Translations under genes and position numbers: made by a program | Assembly: GCA_005887925.1 (NCBI GenBank) | Contig: VBLP01000113.1 | Span: 10,372-44,769, forward strand | Origin: Deltaproteobacteria bacterium | GTDB taxonomy: Bacteria; Myxococcota_A; Polyangia; Haliangiales; Haliangiaceae | Direction of reading: 5' to 3' | DNA length: 34,398 bases | The notes under the pieces: generated by a model | Told to the model about the DNA's origin: nothing | Seen by the model: only the letters and a program-made list of their open reading frames with translations | The model's database searches: none | Part shown: piece by piece, positions 24,869 through 33,764 of the stretch | Layout of the letters: each line of letters starts with the position of its first letter | Numbering within the stretch: position 1 is the first letter of the stretch

Positions 24869-25611
24869 CAGAACGCGATCCCCCACAGCACGCGCGGCGC
24901 GATCCGCACGTGGTACAGGCCGATGCCGAACATGCCGCTGATCCAGAACCGGCCGTGGCTCCACGACACGTCGGGGCCGGCGGTCGCCCAGCTCTCGACG
25001 ACCGAGTCGAGGCTGATCTCCGAGTAGACCTCCGCGCCGACGCGCAGCTCGCTGGTCGCGAGCATGCTGACCCCGGCGCTGGGCCGGAGCTCGACGTGGC
25101 GGCTGCCCGACGCGATGTCGCCGACGGCGCCGAGGTCGACGACCGCCTGCACCGCGCCCGCGTCGTACGAGGCGACGGCGTCGGCCTCGAGCCGCACCGA
25201 GTCGCGCGAGATGACGTCGCGCTTGACCGCGAGCCGGAGCAGCGGCACCAGCGGTGGTGCCTCGGCCGGATCCTGCGGCGCCATGCGGTAGCGCGCCTCG
25301 ATGCCGAACCGCTTGAACGTGAACGAGGTCCGCGTGGTGCCGTCCATCTGCTCGACCGCGGCCCAGTCGAGCTCGACCGGCAGCGCGAGCTCGAGCTGAT
25401 CGGTGACGCCGACCAGCGCGGCCCACGACACCCAGGTCTCCTTGGTCCGCGTGCCGTACTTGTCGTTCTCCTCCTGGATCCAGGTCTGGAGCTCGACGCC
25501 GCGCTCGGGCATCACCTCCGTGCCGAACAACCAGCCGTAATAGGTCCGGCCGGCGTGCGCGGCACGCGGAAACACACACGCGGCGATCAGGAGGGCCAGG
25601 GCGATACGCAC
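24868..25611 (-). CDS. Putative outer-membrane beta-barrel protein
   Basis: The protein has 247 residues from GTG at 25611. MRIALALLIAACVFPRAAHA is a signal peptide with an AHA cleavage site. The mature part alternates polar and hydrophobic residues in amphipathic strands (YGWLFGTEVMPERGVELQTWIQ, LELALPVELDW, RFGIEARYRM, LEADAVASYD, ELRVGAEVYSEI), ending in FWISGMFGIGLYHVRIAPRVLWGIAF with terminal Phe, as is typical for outer-membrane barrels. It is coupled by TGATG to the cupredoxin gene, so it may help place or export that protein or copper. This is inferred from neighbours only. The promoter should lie in the 39 bases shared with the divergent VOC gene. Confidence 0.8.
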   Translation of the reverse strand: MRIALALLIAACVFPRAAHAGRTYYGWLFGTEVMPERGVELQTWIQEENDKYGTRTKETWVSWAALVGVTDQLELALPVELDWAAVEQMDGTTRTSFTFKRFGIEARYRMAPQDPAEAPPLVPLLRLAVKRDVISRDSVRLEADAVASYDAGAVQAVVDLGAVGDIASGSRHVELRPSAGVSMLATSELRVGAEVYSEISLDSVVESWATAGPDVSWSHGRFWISGMFGIGLYHVRIAPRVLWGIAF

Positions 25612-25650
25612 GCGCGCATCCTACCCGCGGGCGGGGGTATCGTCGCGCCC

Positions 25651-26019
25651 ATGATCGATCACATCGGTATCCAGGTCACCGATCTCGACGCCAGCGTGGC
25701 GTTCTACACCCGCGCGCTCGCGCCCTTGGGCTACGCGCTGGTGATGCGCTGGGAGCAGTATGCGGGCTTCGGCGTTGCCGGCAAGCCCGACTTCTGGATC
25801 GGCGCCGGCAGGCCGGCTGACAAGATCCACGTCGCGTTCCGCGCCCGGGGCCGCGGCGAGGTGCGCGCGTTCCACGACGCGGCGATCGCCGCCGGCGGGA
25901 CCGACAACGGGCCGCCCGGGATCCGCGCGGTCTACCATCCGGACTACTACGGCGCCTTCGTCCTCGATCCCGACGGCCACAACGTCGAGGCGGTGTGTCA
26001 CGACGCGTACCTCGACTAG
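25651..26019 (+). CDS. VOC (glyoxalase/dioxygenase) family protein
   Basis: The protein has 122 residues, a single VOC unit. MIDHIGIQVTDLDASVAFYTRALAPLGY is the first beta-alpha-beta module with metal-ligand His4. KIHVAFRARGRGEVRAFHDAAIAAGG is the second module, and the end HPDYYGAFVLDPDGHNVEAVCH carries the typical GHN-x-E pair. It resembles small stand-alone VOC proteins of glyoxalase or bleomycin-resistance type; the substrate is unknown. The ATG at 25651 starts directly with the conserved fold. It is divergent from the outer-membrane gene with 39 bases between. Confidence 0.93.
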   Translation: MIDHIGIQVTDLDASVAFYTRALAPLGYALVMRWEQYAGFGVAGKPDFWIGAGRPADKIHVAFRARGRGEVRAFHDAAIAAGGTDNGPPGIRAVYHPDYYGAFVLDPDGHNVEAVCHDAYLD

Positions 26020-26192: not shown

Positions 26193-27302
26193 CTACGCGA
26201 TCAGCTCGATCGGGCGCGGCGACAGCGGACACAGCTCGCCGATCGCGGCTGCGGTCAGGCCCTCGCTGCGCAGCGCCGCGGTGCAGGCCTCGGCGCGCTC
26301 GGCCGGGACGCACAGGAGGAGGCCGCCGCTGGTCTGGGCATCGCACGCCAGCGAGGCGAGCAGCTCGCGCTCGGCGTCGCCGGGGGCGGGCTCGGCGGTG
26401 AGCGGCGCGCCGTCGGACCACCGCACGAGATCGGCGACGAACGCCCGGTTGGCCTTGCTGCCGCCGGGGCACAGCTGATCGCGCAGGTGGCCCAGGGCGT
26501 CGGGCAGGATCGGCAGGCGCGCGAGCTCGATCCGCGCGCCGACCTGCGAGCCGCGCACGAGGTTGCGGAGGTGGCCGAGCAGGCCGAAGCCGGTGATGTC
26601 GGTCGCCGAGGTCACGCCGTGCGCGTGGCCGATCCGCGCGGCGCCCTGGTTGAGCGTGGTCATGGCGGCGATCGCCGCGGCCGTGGCGGCGGGGCTGGCG
26701 ACGCCCTTCTTGATCGCCTGTCCGATCACGCCCGTGCCGAGCGGCTTGGTCAGCACCAGGACCTGGCCCGGCCGCGCCGTGCGGTTGGACCACAGCGCGC
26801 TGGGCTCGACCTCGCCGGTGACCGACAGGCCGTACTTGAGCTCGGGGTCGCGCACCGAGTGGCCGCCGACGATCGCGACGCCGGCCCGAGCGCAGGTCCG
26901 CGTGCCGCCGGCGAGGATCGCGTCGAGCACGTCGAGCGGCAGCTGATCGTCGGGGAAGAACACCAGGCTGAGCGCGAACCGCGGCTCGCCGCCCATCGCC
27001 CAGACGTCCGACATCGCGTTGGCCGCGGCGATCGCGCCGAACGCCTCGGGGTCGTCGACCAGCGGCGCGATCACGTCGGCGGTGAGCACCAGGTCGCGGC
27101 CGGCCGTGCCGCGCACCACGGCGGCGTCGTCGGACAGCTCGTGATCGACGATGACATCGCGGCGCACGCCTCCCGCCGCGCCTGCCGGACCTGGAAGGTG
27201 CGCGAGGACCTGGGTCAGCTCACCGAGCCGAAGCTTGGCGGCTCAACCACCGCCGCGGGCATACTGCGTGAGGCGGATCGCGGCGCGGGCTTCGGGGGTC
27301 AT
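26193..27302 (-). CDS. selD: Selenophosphate synthetase, itself a selenoprotein (Sec20)
   Basis: SelD makes selenophosphate from selenide and ATP for selenocysteine synthesis. The protein has 369 residues from ATG at 27302, with TGA at 27243-27245 read as Sec20. The N-terminus IRLTQYARGGG-U-AAKLRLGELTQVL matches the family's catalytic motif with Cys or Sec and the essential Lys three residues later (Lys23). The rest is a complete SelD: LSDDAAVV, ADVIAPLVDDPEAFGAIAAANAMSDVWAMGG, GGHSVRDPELKYGLSVTGEV, TKPLGTGVI, SATDITGFGLLGHL, and DAQTSGGLL. Without Sec decoding the longest frame would begin at GTG 27167 and lack the catalytic end. A hairpin downstream of the TGA fits a bacterial SECIS. It lies 49 bases after the stop of a kinase gene on the same strand. 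Confidence 0.95.
27215..27245 (-). promoter_or_regulatory. Candidate bacterial SECIS element in selD
   Basis: On the selD strand the UGA (27245-27243) is followed after 18 bases by a GGU loop (27224-27222). The loop is closed by a 7-bp stem: UCGGCUC on the left (27231-27225) and GAGCUGA on the right (27221-27215), with one G-U pair. The distance of 18 bases from UGA to GGU is the same as in E. coli fdhF. SelB would bind this loop to insert selenocysteine. Confidence 0.85.
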
Positions 27303-27351: not shown

Positions 27352-29516
<2,165 letters not shown>

Positions 29517-29520
<4 letters not shown>

Positions 29521-30052: not shown

Positions 30053-31621
30053 ATGAGGCGGCTCTCGTTCGCGCTGGTGGCGCTGGTCGTTGCGCGGCCG
30101 GTGTTCGCCCAGCCCGCGCCCGAGCCGCCGCAGCCGCAGCCCGCGCCCGAGCCGCCGCCGCCGCCGCAGGCACCGGCCCCCGAGCCGCTCGCGCCCAGCT
30201 CGCCCGACGACGCCGCCCCCGACGAGGTGCCGGCAGGGCCGCGCGCCGATCCCGACACCGTGCTCCACGAGGACAACGAGTTCGGCCCGCTGATCCTGAT
30301 CGAGCGGATCGACATCACCGGCAACACCGCGACGCAGACCGAGATCATCCAGCGCGCGCTGCCGATCAGCCCCGGCGACGTCCTGCACTCGAGCGACAAG
30401 CGGCTGCGCGAGGCGCGGTTCAAGATCCTCGCGCTCGGCTACTTCCGCGACGTCGGCCTGGCGATCCACAAGGGCAGCCAGCGCGGCCAGGTCGTCATCG
30501 AGGTCCACGTCGTCGAGCGCGGCACGCTGGTGCTGAACCGCCTGTGGTTCGGCACCACGTCGCTGTCGCCGTGGTGGGCCGGCGCGGACATCGGCGAGCG
30601 CAACCTGTACGGCCTCGGCCTGGGCGTCGGCGGCGGCTTCGTGTTCGCCCGCCACGGCGACTTCCCCGGCGCGCGCGACCAGTACGCCGCCGAGATCCGC
30701 ATCACCGACCCGTCGCTGCGCGGCAGCCGGTGGGGCGCGAGCTGGGCCGCGACCGTGGTCCACGGCAGCGAGCCGTACCGCGTGCCGTGCACGCCCGTCG
30801 ACGGCGACCCCAGCCCGACGTGCGCGTTCCCGTATCGCCGCGTCGGCGTGCGGATCGGCGCGACCTACAACATCAGCGCGCTGACCCGGCTGACCACCGG
30901 CCTGCGCATCGAGGCGATCGACGCCGCGCTGCCGGCGGTCCCGCTCGTGCAGCACCCCGACGGCTCGCTCACCACCGCCAACCTCCACCTCCTCCCCGGC
31001 GCCAGCCGCGTCGTCACCACCAGCTTCGGCTTCGACCGCGACACCCGGCCCGATCCGATCCTGCCGCACGCCGGTGATCGCATCGTCGCGTCCGCCGAGC
31101 TCGGCGGCACGCTGCTCGGCGGCAGCTACGACTTCGCGACGATCTTCGCCGGCTACGAGCACTACTGGCCCCTGCTCGGCGAGCGCCACGCGCTGGCGAT
31201 CAAGCTCGCCGGCGGCGTGGTCGTCGGCGACGCCCCCCGGTTCGACCGGATCTACATCGCCGACGTCGACCGCATGCTGACGCCGCGCGCGCTCGGCATG
31301 GTGCTGTCGACCTCGCCGCCGCTGTCGATCCTCGGGACCCGGGCCGACAAGCCCGCCTACGGCGACCTCGGCGGCAGCGCGACCGTCGAGTACGCGCTCC
31401 AGGTGTACCGCGGCAGCGGCAAGCAGCGGCTGTACGGCGCCGACGTGTTCGTCGCCGCCGGCGTGTGGGGGCTCGCCGAGCACGCCGAGCTGCGTGCGCG
31501 CACCACCGGCCTGGCCGCCGCGCTGCCGATCGACGTGTTCGCCGACGCCGGCCTGCGGATCGACACCGACATCGGCGTGTTCGAGCTCGCGATCGGCAAC
31601 GCGCTGGGACGGCTGCGATGA
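30053..31621 (+). CDS. Omp85/BamA-like outer-membrane protein with one POTRA
   Basis: The protein has 522 residues from ATG at 30053. MRRLSFALVALVVARPVFAQ is a signal peptide. A Pro/Glu/Ala-rich linker follows (20-75). One POTRA domain (about 80-160) has IERIDITGNTATQTEIIQRAL, GDVLHSSDKRLREARFKILALGYF and VVIEVHVVE. The rest is a beta barrel of the Omp85 surface-antigen type (NLYGLGLGVGGGFVFARHGDF, GVRIGATYNISALTRLTTGLRIE, TTSFGFDRDTRPDPILPHAGDRI), ending in a short strand. BamA has five POTRA domains, so this is a smaller relative and not the essential BamA. Upstream of the ATG is only a weak GGAAG. The stop overlaps the next start (ATGA). Confidence 0.88.
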   Translation: MRRLSFALVALVVARPVFAQPAPEPPQPQPAPEPPPPPQAPAPEPLAPSSPDDAAPDEVPAGPRADPDTVLHEDNEFGPLILIERIDITGNTATQTEIIQRALPISPGDVLHSSDKRLREARFKILALGYFRDVGLAIHKGSQRGQVVIEVHVVERGTLVLNRLWFGTTSLSPWWAGADIGERNLYGLGLGVGGGFVFARHGDFPGARDQYAAEIRITDPSLRGSRWGASWAATVVHGSEPYRVPCTPVDGDPSPTCAFPYRRVGVRIGATYNISALTRLTTGLRIEAIDAALPAVPLVQHPDGSLTTANLHLLPGASRVVTTSFGFDRDTRPDPILPHAGDRIVASAELGGTLLGGSYDFATIFAGYEHYWPLLGERHALAIKLAGGVVVGDAPRFDRIYIADVDRMLTPRALGMVLSTSPPLSILGTRADKPAYGDLGGSATVEYALQVYRGSGKQRLYGADVFVAAGVWGLAEHAELRARTTGLAAALPIDVFADAGLRIDTDIGVFELAIGNALGRLR

Positions 31622-32277
31622 CGCGTACGCTGCTCGGCGCGGCCGCGACCGTCGCGGCGGTGCTCGCGTTCGCCCGGCCGGCGCACGCCGACGACAAGCT
31701 CGACGTCCAGCGCATGCGGTTCGTCGAGCGCGGCGAGGAGCTCACCGTCTCGACCCTCCCGCCCGGCGGGATTGGCAAGCTGTTCGACGCCACCGCCTAC
31801 GAGGCGCTGTCGAGCGGCATCGCGTCCACCGTCGTGATCCGGATCCAGATCACGGCGCGCGACGCCAACGAGCCGGTCGCCGAGCAGCTGATCCAGCGCT
31901 CCGTCGTCTACGACGTGTGGGACGAGATCTACACGCTCCGGCTCGACGAGCCCGGCGGCTCGCGGACGTTCAAGGTCAAGTACCGCGCCGAGGCCCTCAA
32001 GTGGCTGACCGCGATCGACGACCTCCCCGTCGCGCGGACCCAGGTCCTGCCGCTCGAGCAGGTGTTCGTGCTCAAGATGGTCGTCGAGCTCAACCCCGTC
32101 TCCAGGGAGACCCTCGCCGAGGTCCGGCGCTGGCTCAGCCAGGGCACCGGCGGCGGGATCGACCGCGGCGGCGCCTTCTTCGGCTCGTTCGTGTCCGTGT
32201 TCTACAATCCCAAGATCGCCGATGCCGACCGCGTGCTGCGCCTCCGGTCGCAACCCTTCTACAGGCCCACCCCGTGA
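31618..32277 (+). CDS. DUF4390-like periplasmic protein
   Basis: The protein has 219 residues. MTRTLLGAAATVAAVLAFARPAHA is a signal peptide. The mature sequence has the pattern of DUF4390: AYEALSSGIASTVVIRIQI, a following RSVVYDVWDEIYTLRLDE strand pair, a helix around REALKWL-like ALKWLTAIDDLP, and LPLEQVFVLKMVVELNPVSRETL. The match is tentative. In Proteobacteria DUF4390 genes often lie beside ntrY, and here the next gene is an NtrY-like kinase. Both borders are four-base overlaps (ATGA in front, GTGA behind), so the three genes from 30053 form one operon. It may pass an envelope signal to the kinase, by inference. Confidence 0.7.
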   Translation: MTRTLLGAAATVAAVLAFARPAHADDKLDVQRMRFVERGEELTVSTLPPGGIGKLFDATAYEALSSGIASTVVIRIQITARDANEPVAEQLIQRSVVYDVWDEIYTLRLDEPGGSRTFKVKYRAEALKWLTAIDDLPVARTQVLPLEQVFVLKMVVELNPVSRETLAEVRRWLSQGTGGGIDRGGAFFGSFVSVFYNPKIADADRVLRLRSQPFYRPTP

Positions 32278-33764
32278 CCCACGAAAAGCGCCTGCCCCTC
32301 CAGCTCAAGCTCACGGCCACGCTCGTGCTGATCGTGATGACGCCGCTCGCCGCGTCGGCGTACCTCATCGATCAGCTCGGCAAGGCCGCCGCCAACGTCG
32401 CCGCCGGCGAGGCGTCGTCGCGGATCGCGACCATGGAGAAGGCGATCGACACCTATCGCGACATGGTCGACATCACCAAGCGCCTGCACGACGAGATCGC
32501 CACCCGGCTCGCGCAGCGCCCCGACTTCCTCCAGCTCGACCCCACCGTCAACCTCGCCCGCATCATCAACGACGAGCCGGGCCTGCGCGCGATCGCGCTG
32601 CTCCGCCCCGATGGCAGCGCCGCCGCCGAGGCCGAGCGTCCGTCGCCCGGACCGCAGTGGCGCGACAAGATCGTCGACCATCCCCTCGGCACCGGCGGCG
32701 CGACCTTGAAGCTCACGTTCACGGTGTCGGCGACCGTCAACGAGGACCTCGGCCGCCTCAAGCAATCGATCGACGCCGCCCGCACGTTCTCCCAGATCCG
32801 CACCGCGCTGCCCGAAAGCTACCGCACCGCGTTCCTCGTCCTGCTCGGCGTCGCCGGCCTCGCCGCCGCCGGCTTCGGCATGCGGGCGTCGTCGTTCCTG
32901 ACCCGGCGGATCGACGCCCTCGTGTCGACCGCGCGCAAGGTCTCCGACGGCCACCTCGACGCGCGGGTCGAGCTGCGCGGCCAGGACGAGCTCGCCGAGC
33001 TCGGCAGCGCGTTCAACACCATGCTCGACGATCTCGACCAGACCCGCACCCAGCTCGAGTACCTCCAGCGCATGGGCGTGTGGCAGGACGTCGCGCGGCG
33101 GCTCGCCCACGAGATCAAGAACCCGCTGACCCCGATCCAGCTCGCCGTCCAGCAGTGCGTGTCGTCGTACCGCGGCGACGAGGCGCGGTTCAGAAAGCTC
33201 CTGGTCGACACCGGCGAGATCGTCGAGGAGGAGATCGCCGGTCTGCGCCGCCTGGTCGACACGTTCCGCACCCTCGGCGCGCTGCCCAAGGTCGAGGCGG
33301 CCCCGATCGCGCTCGCCGAGGTCATCGACGAGCTCAAGCTCGATCCCACCGTCGCCGTGCACCTGACGCTCGCGCCGCCGGCCTCGCCGGTCACCGTGCG
33401 CGCCGACAAGCTGCTGCTCAAGCGCGTGCTCGCCAACCTGATCGAGAACGCGATCCACGCCGGCGAGGAGGCCGGCGCCACCGGCGACGTCGTGGTCGGC
33501 TGGGCCGCCGATCCTGCGCGCAACGTCGTCACCATCACGGTCGACGATCACGGCCACGGCGTTCCCGAGGCCAGCCGCGTCAAGATCTTCGAGCCCTACG
33601 TCACCACCAAGTCCACCGGCACCGGCCTCGGCCTCGCGATCGCCCGCAAGATCGCGATCGAGCACGGCGGCGACCTCGTGCTCGCCCCCGACCGCGCCCC
33701 CACCGGCGGCGCTCGCTTCGTGGTCTCGCTGCCCCTGCGCGGCCCCGACGCATCGCTGCCGTGA
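32274..33764 (+). CDS. NtrY-like sensor histidine kinase
   Basis: The protein has 496 residues from GTG at 32274. It has a membrane helix (about 12-33), a periplasmic domain of about 150 residues, a second helix (184-204), HAMP (205-258, VSDGHLDARVELRGQDELAELGSAFNTM), a HisKA domain with His279 in RRLAHEIKNPLTPIQL, and an HATPase domain with N box NLIENAIHAGEE, DDHGHGVP and GTGLGLAIARK. The WQDVARRLAHEIKNPLTPIQLA block is the hallmark of NtrY/GlrK-type kinases. It should autophosphorylate and signal to an NtrC/NtrX-type regulator. No response regulator lies next to it, so the partner is elsewhere or is one of the sigma-54 activators. It is coupled by GTGA to the DUF4390-like gene. Confidence 0.93.
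   Translation: MTHEKRLPLQLKLTATLVLIVMTPLAASAYLIDQLGKAAANVAAGEASSRIATMEKAIDTYRDMVDITKRLHDEIATRLAQRPDFLQLDPTVNLARIINDEPGLRAIALLRPDGSAAAEAERPSPGPQWRDKIVDHPLGTGGATLKLTFTVSATVNEDLGRLKQSIDAARTFSQIRTALPESYRTAFLVLLGVAGLAAAGFGMRASSFLTRRIDALVSTARKVSDGHLDARVELRGQDELAELGSAFNTMLDDLDQTRTQLEYLQRMGVWQDVARRLAHEIKNPLTPIQLAVQQCVSSYRGDEARFRKLLVDTGEIVEEEIAGLRRLVDTFRTLGALPKVEAAPIALAEVIDELKLDPTVAVHLTLAPPASPVTVRADKLLLKRVLANLIENAIHAGEEAGATGDVVVGWAADPARNVVTITVDDHGHGVPEASRVKIFEPYVTTKSTGTGLGLAIARKIAIEHGGDLVLAPDRAPTGGARFVVSLPLRGPDASLP

Follow-up and report, generated by a model that had tools for sequence, protein, structure and literature searches.

A predicted selenocysteine-containing SelD in a draft Myxococcota genome, with SECIS-like hairpins at different positions among its relatives

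Selenophosphate synthetases (SelD) that themselves contain selenocysteine (Sec) are long known and common, and the preliminary description of the DNA studied here had already remarked that some bacteria have them; they share one family, one position for Sec and a hairpin after the UGA, and are accompanied by SelA, SelB and tRNA-Sec. The cysteine form, for example that of E. coli (PDB 3u0o), is of the same family and has the same active-site column, with Cys in place of Sec and no need of a SECIS. The selD gene described here differs from the E. coli gene in having a Sec codon at that column, and it adds one further example of the Sec-containing form, from whose known members we found no substantial difference in the SelD itself. 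A model for the hairpin is the SECIS of E. coli fdhF, which lies directly after its UGA with GGU in the loop and a spacing about that of the selD examined here, as the preliminary description had it. It differs in its greater length and in a bulged U, and the selD hairpin competes with other folds in free RNA. That the Cys or Sec of SelD is catalytic is put as a general statement on SelD in PMC13188914, which also gives limits for bacterial SECIS elements (bSECIS): a stem of 4-16 bp, a loop of 3-9 nt, a G in the first two loop bases, a spacing of 16-37 nt and an energy of ≤−7.5 kcal/mol. PMC1794560 describes few changes from Sec to Cys, for the most part in FdhA and SelD, with three events for SelD in Table 1, and some converted genes keep remnant SECIS-like structures.

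The region analysed, here called the window, is a stretch of 34,398 nt (assembly GCA_005887925.1, contig VBLP01000113.1, positions 10,372-44,769 of the forward strand). Its features of interest are as follows.

26193..27302, minus strand: selD, selenophosphate synthetase, 369 codons with the UGA read as Sec (TIGR00476, PF00586, PF02769, PDB 3u0o)
27300..27302, minus strand: ATG start of selD (the N-terminus MTPEA(K/R)AAIRLT or similar recurs in many same-family Sec-SelDs)
27243..27245, minus strand: UGA (Sec) codon 20, the active-site position (alignment to Cys-SelDs and relatives)
27215..27231, minus strand: SECIS-like hairpin of 7 bp (27231-27225 with 27221-27215), −7.9 kcal/mol (bSECIS scan and synonymous-site conservation)
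27222..27224, minus strand: apical loop GGU, 18 nt past the UGA

The reading frame runs on the minus strand from the ATG at 27302 through a single TGA (27245-27243) to a TAG (26195-26193), with the coordinates first proposed for a complete SelD, and a profile search with the full 369-residue product gave 325.5 bits against TIGR00476 (cut-off 125), which places it in SelD. Both the AIRS (PF00586) and AIRS_C (PF02769) domains were matched, and the best solved relative is E. coli SelD 3u0o (E 3.8e-62). The TGA is codon 20, in the context ...ARGGG-U-AAKLRLGEL..., and its claimed place at the Cys or Sec of SelD (GGG-U-AAK) is borne out by alignment, the column being Cys in E. coli SelD (3u0o, ...GAGCGCK...) and in Aquifex SelD (2yye). 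A UGA at the active-site Cys column is thus flanked by open frame on both sides, with 349 codons following it. Since the sole TGA of 369 codons falls on the one codon with known Sec in SelD and is shared by relatives, its position is beyond chance. We take the Cys or Sec at this column to be the catalytic residue of SelD. An ORF from GTG 27167, where automatic annotation had been expected to start and lose the site, is present, with 324 aa and no active-site loop, and still reaches 299.7 bits as SelD. The upstream neighbour of selD is a Ser/Thr protein kinase with a zinc ribbon (27352-29520, minus strand) with no evident link to selenium; a glyoxalase-superfamily protein (24910-26019, plus strand) and a HAMP histidine kinase (31494-33764, plus strand) are also present.

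The genome is a draft (12.2 Mb, 778 contigs, 81% complete), and tRNA-Sec, selB and a selA, which had all been predicted from the selD gene, are found in its assembly. The tRNA-Sec (anticodon TCA) scores 67.9 bits (cut-off 47) and is ≤91% identical to tRNA-Sec of relatives, and SelB (633 aa, 296 bits, cut-off 242.25) has the winged-helix domains PF09106 and PF09107 and is 73% identical over its length to SelB of a genome of the same genus, G003; a lack of selB or tRNA-Sec had been named as the finding that would speak against a selenoprotein, and both are present. SelA completes the set at 556.5 bits (cut-off 267.9) and may itself be foreign or acquired.

G000:C639 (L016 1024-2403, L188), on a 4.5-kb contig: SelA of the window's genome

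This SelA is divergent, with ≤52.5% identity to other family SelAs over >300 residues and 60.5% over a 233-residue piece only; for the other family SelAs of sufficient length for comparison the nearest relative lies at 60-80% identity in 24 of 24 cases. Because it is divergent and sits on a contig of 4.5 kb, the contig may be foreign or the gene may have been acquired or replaced. The SelA of G003, also of the window's genus (g1), is likewise unlike the rest of the genus, its nearest relative being that of G020 of genus g4 (60%), and it shares one 63.8-kb contig with its selD and tRNA-Sec; replacement of SelA within the genus is plausible. Within the 34,398-nt window an Rfam scan at gathering thresholds gave no matches and ARAGORN no tRNAs, so selC does not lie within the window. 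The selenouridine trait (mnmH/ybbB) was considered as a reason for SelD and set aside: mnmH had no match in the window's genome (81% complete), which leaves selenouridine as no evident reason for SelD here, and 4 of the 30 family genomes have mnmH over cut-off. Plasmid records were also set aside, 172 having a match, all at <60% identity.

Further selenoproteins had been expected in this organism, and one such gene was found, a SelW-like CxxU gene whose UGA falls on a redox site of the Cys type. It matches TIGR02174 (CXXU SelW/T/H) with one TGA at 37.5 bits (cut-off 34.2), reads MQVTIRYCTAUGYRPRAARVAAQL... with a CxxU motif and a PF10262 Rdx match, and is followed by a hairpin of 8 bp with its loop at +21 and −15.3 kcal/mol. 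SelW-like matches occur in 21 of the 30 family genomes (14 over cut-off), with one TGA in 20 of the 21; the remaining match is partial and the site falls outside it. Sixteen of the 20 TGA genes have a hairpin within the bSECIS limits and four fail, L207, L210, L215 and L223 having no conforming hairpin in a scan for uninterrupted stems. FdhA was rejected as the selenoprotein for whose sake the trait persists: the window's genome has two Fdh-alpha-like matches (E ≤1e-60), both lacking TGA and scoring under the family cut-off.

The active-site codon was then compared between relatives. A TIGR00476 search of 30 genomes of the family found SelD over cut-off in 27, and 26 readable active-site codons comprise 17 TGA, 8 TGC and 1 TGT and no other codon, the TGA thus being present in 16 family genomes besides the window's own. 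Genome G008 was left out of this count, its main piece beginning at a contig end, past the active site; it holds two differing SelD pieces (G008:C377, L185, and G008:C457, L040), one with TGA and the other starting after the site, possibly two copies or a mixed bin. Genus g1 (16 genomes) is split, with 8 TGA and 7 Cys among its readable codons. Among 50 named SelD loci of the genome collection 49 were readable, 22 with TGA and 27 with Cys, two Enhygromyxa salina strains carrying TGA; at least 11 (about 11) of these loci are from the same genomes as the family set, judged by identical sequence (e.g. L135, L030). A phylum-wide draw gave SelD at E ≤1e-40 in 244 of 377 genomes, and 89 of 150 among the matches listed have one in-frame TGA (a hand count, TGA anywhere in the gene). 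Given these and the family counts, Sec-SelD appears common in the phylum.

The decoding machinery accompanies TGA-SelD in most of the family. SelA is over cut-off in 15 of the 17 genomes with TGA-SelD (G002 has none, G019 a piece), tRNA-Sec is matched in 15 (not G002, G028) and SelB is over cut-off in 13 (not G005, G014, G019, G024); the genomes with gaps in the set are drafts of 59-96% listed completeness, and assembly gaps are the likely cause of the missing genes. The seven g1 genomes with Cys-SelD have the machinery too: all seven have SelA over cut-off and a tRNA-Sec, six have SelB over cut-off and the seventh pieces of it, and five have the SelW-like UGA gene. Such Cys-SelDs beside retained machinery fit what PMC1794560 says on Sec-to-Cys changes. 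We also built a SelD tree from 42 rows, 26 of the family and 16 from elsewhere, with the Sec column masked; it requires seven or more Sec/Cys changes (either direction counted), four or more of them imposed by well-supported branches. These comparisons suggest that Sec and Cys were exchanged several times in SelD of the family. G007, a g1 genome with the hairpin at +18, does not group with the other g1 rows, at a weakly supported fork; such a placement would be in keeping with g1 having had a Sec-SelD early on and lost it repeatedly.

Some family genomes depart from this pattern. G016 (genus g2) and G021 (g5) appear to have lost the Sec trait, with neither SelD nor SelB over cut-off and neither SelA nor tRNA-Sec matched; the FdhA match of G021 has no in-frame TGA. 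In G026 (g6, listed as 96% complete) tRNA-Sec and the SelW-like UGA gene are present, yet neither SelD nor SelB is over cut-off and SelA is unmatched, possibly through an assembly gap or partial decay. Two tRNA-Sec copies lie about 7 kb apart in G009 (G009:C163 3030-3125 and 10027-10122, L198) and are identical over a 99-nt run starting at the first base of the tRNA, which may reflect duplication at a site of integration; a mobile element between them was considered and rejected, with no integrase among the five ORFs scanned.

The hairpin after the UGA was found exactly as the preliminary description had it, a GGU loop 18 bases after the TGA closed by 7 bp, and at −7.9 kcal/mol it is within the bSECIS limits. 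With the same limits and uninterrupted stems only, conforming hairpins were found in 33 of 39 TGA-SelDs vs 4 of 36 Cys-SelDs (L040 and L140, whose site is not covered, and L044-L046, which have no SelD match by BLAST, are excluded), or 26 of 32 vs 4 of 30 when identical-looking rows (7 TGA, 6 Cys) are taken out. A further set of Myxococcota loci, 26 of 30 readable by motif, gave 4 of 6 TGA vs 0 of 20 Cys. From the window's sequence alone the hairpin would not stand above chance, as 37% of 300 synonymous shuffles of its selD hold an equally good one; the genus-wide comparison suggests that it does. In the eight same-genus Sec-SelDs the seven codons of the hairpin rank 20th of 355 gene windows in synonymous differences (lowest = most conserved), at 0.176 vs 0.357 overall, and codons +5, +6, +8 and +9 are identical in all eight, whereas in the seven same-genus Cys-SelDs the same codons are among the most variable (rank 347 of 360, 0.617 vs 0.430 overall). 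Within the genus a single compensatory change was seen, at the outermost pair, where relatives have C-G for the U-A of the window. Plain minimum-energy folding around the UGA was dropped as SECIS evidence, as it does not give the GGU hairpin. In the free 45-nt RNA of the window's selD the hairpin pairs have a probability of 0.0, other folds being preferred; once the first 12 nt, assumed to be covered by the ribosome, are dropped, the probability is 0.35-0.41 for the window and from 0.0 to 0.99 for seven same-genus relatives.

With the UGA at the Cys column, the machinery in the same genome and the hairpin downstream, selD almost certainly encodes a Sec-containing selenophosphate synthetase in which Sec would be inserted at UGA 20 through SelB and the hairpin; the observation made at first is confirmed and its interpretation supported. 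We nevertheless weighed three other readings. A true TGC or TGT could have been misread or misassembled as TGA, making the protein a Cys-SelD, for which one can cite the draft state of the genome and the Cys codons that 9 of the 26 readable SelDs of the family have here, but TGA stands at the same codon in 16 other, separately assembled genomes of the family, and the hairpin codons are synonymously conserved in the same-genus TGA set, not the Cys set, with the window's codons following the TGA pattern; we consider an error highly improbable. Hardly any more credence can be given to a selD that is decaying by nonsense mutation, or that yields only a truncated SelD started at GTG 27167: an in-frame start does follow the TGA and the 324 residues from it still score 299.7 bits, yet the lone stop falls on the single codon where Sec occurs in the family, all 349 codons after it are intact, the truncated form would be without the active-site loop, and N-terminus and UGA are kept in relatives.

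The third reading accepts a Sec-SelD and places its insertion signal in an alternative fold around the UGA rather than in the GGU hairpin. The free 45-nt RNA favours other folds in the window and in most of the seven same-genus relatives, the hairpin being dominant only in L029 and reaching 0.45 in L039. Part of the alternative fold, however, would be within mRNA that the ribosome covers, as a ribosome at the UGA is expected from its geometry to cover the stretch just past it. The position, loop and conserved codons of the GGU hairpin moreover fit the bSECIS model as published in PMC13188914, and we judge the alternative fold unlikely, though deserving of some weight.

On the preferred reading, that of Sec insertion directed by the GGU hairpin, SelB with Sec-tRNA-Sec would dock on the hairpin just downstream of a ribosome at UGA 20, and Sec would be inserted at codon 20 in place of termination. 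Sec20, in the Gly-rich N-terminal loop, would be the selenium-handling residue in the conversion of selenide and ATP to selenophosphate, from which SelA would form Sec-tRNA-Sec. We infer the insertion and the dependence on selenium, and take the part played by the residue from what is known of the family. As complete SelD would need Sec, which is true of any Sec-SelD, the enzyme would require its own product for its making, a positive, self-dependent loop, and it would also serve at least one further selenoprotein, the SelW-like one.

The position of the hairpin differs between genera. The best hairpin in the 17 TGA-SelDs of the family lies at +18 in 8 of 8 g1 genes, at +26 or +27 in 6 of 6 g6 genes and at +33 in 3 of 3 g4 genes, one of the three just missing the energy limit, and both Enhygromyxa SelDs have it at +26 or +27. 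The other two sites hold no hairpin of similar strength, except in L017 (+17, 5 bp, −5.8) and L147 (+33, 6 bp, −6.1). In g6 the +27 window is the one with synonymous conservation, moderately so (rank 53 of 349). Outside the family the loop is at +32 or +33 in L157, L165, L167, L170, L176, L178 and L182 (Acidobacteriota, Chloroflexota and Myxococcota being included), at +17 in L177, L179, L181 and L183, and at +20 in L155 and L164. With modest confidence we lean towards a SECIS of one gene that moved along the coding sequence (+33 in g4, +26-27 in g6 and Enhygromyxa, +18 in g1), each time with 6-7 bp, a G in the first two loop bases and different codons, together with repeated exchange of Sec and Cys, g1 Cys-SelDs that no longer conserve the hairpin codons, and retention of SelA, tRNA-Sec, mostly SelB and the SelW-like UGA gene. 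Both the movement and its order are suggested by the hairpin positions.

The differences in hairpin position and the exchange of Sec and Cys within one genus are the parts with some freshness. Our literature searches found no paper joining Kofleriaceae with selenocysteine, for Myxococcota selenoproteins read with UGA a single paper whose title concerns gut microbiota and heart disease, and, at the level of titles and abstracts, no mention of shifts of the SECIS along SelD, which is not to say that such shifts are unpublished. For this genome the result corrects the gene model, as a protein begun at the following in-frame start would be without its active-site loop, and it points to an organism that probably uses Sec and has two or more selenoprotein genes. 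Genus g1, with Sec- and Cys-SelD beside retained Sec machinery, offers a usable set for asking what makes SelD retain or give up its Sec and how a bacterial SECIS comes into being within a coding sequence. If the hairpin did move as proposed, SelD of this genus would offer a natural case for testing the gain, movement and loss of a SECIS inside a conserved protein.
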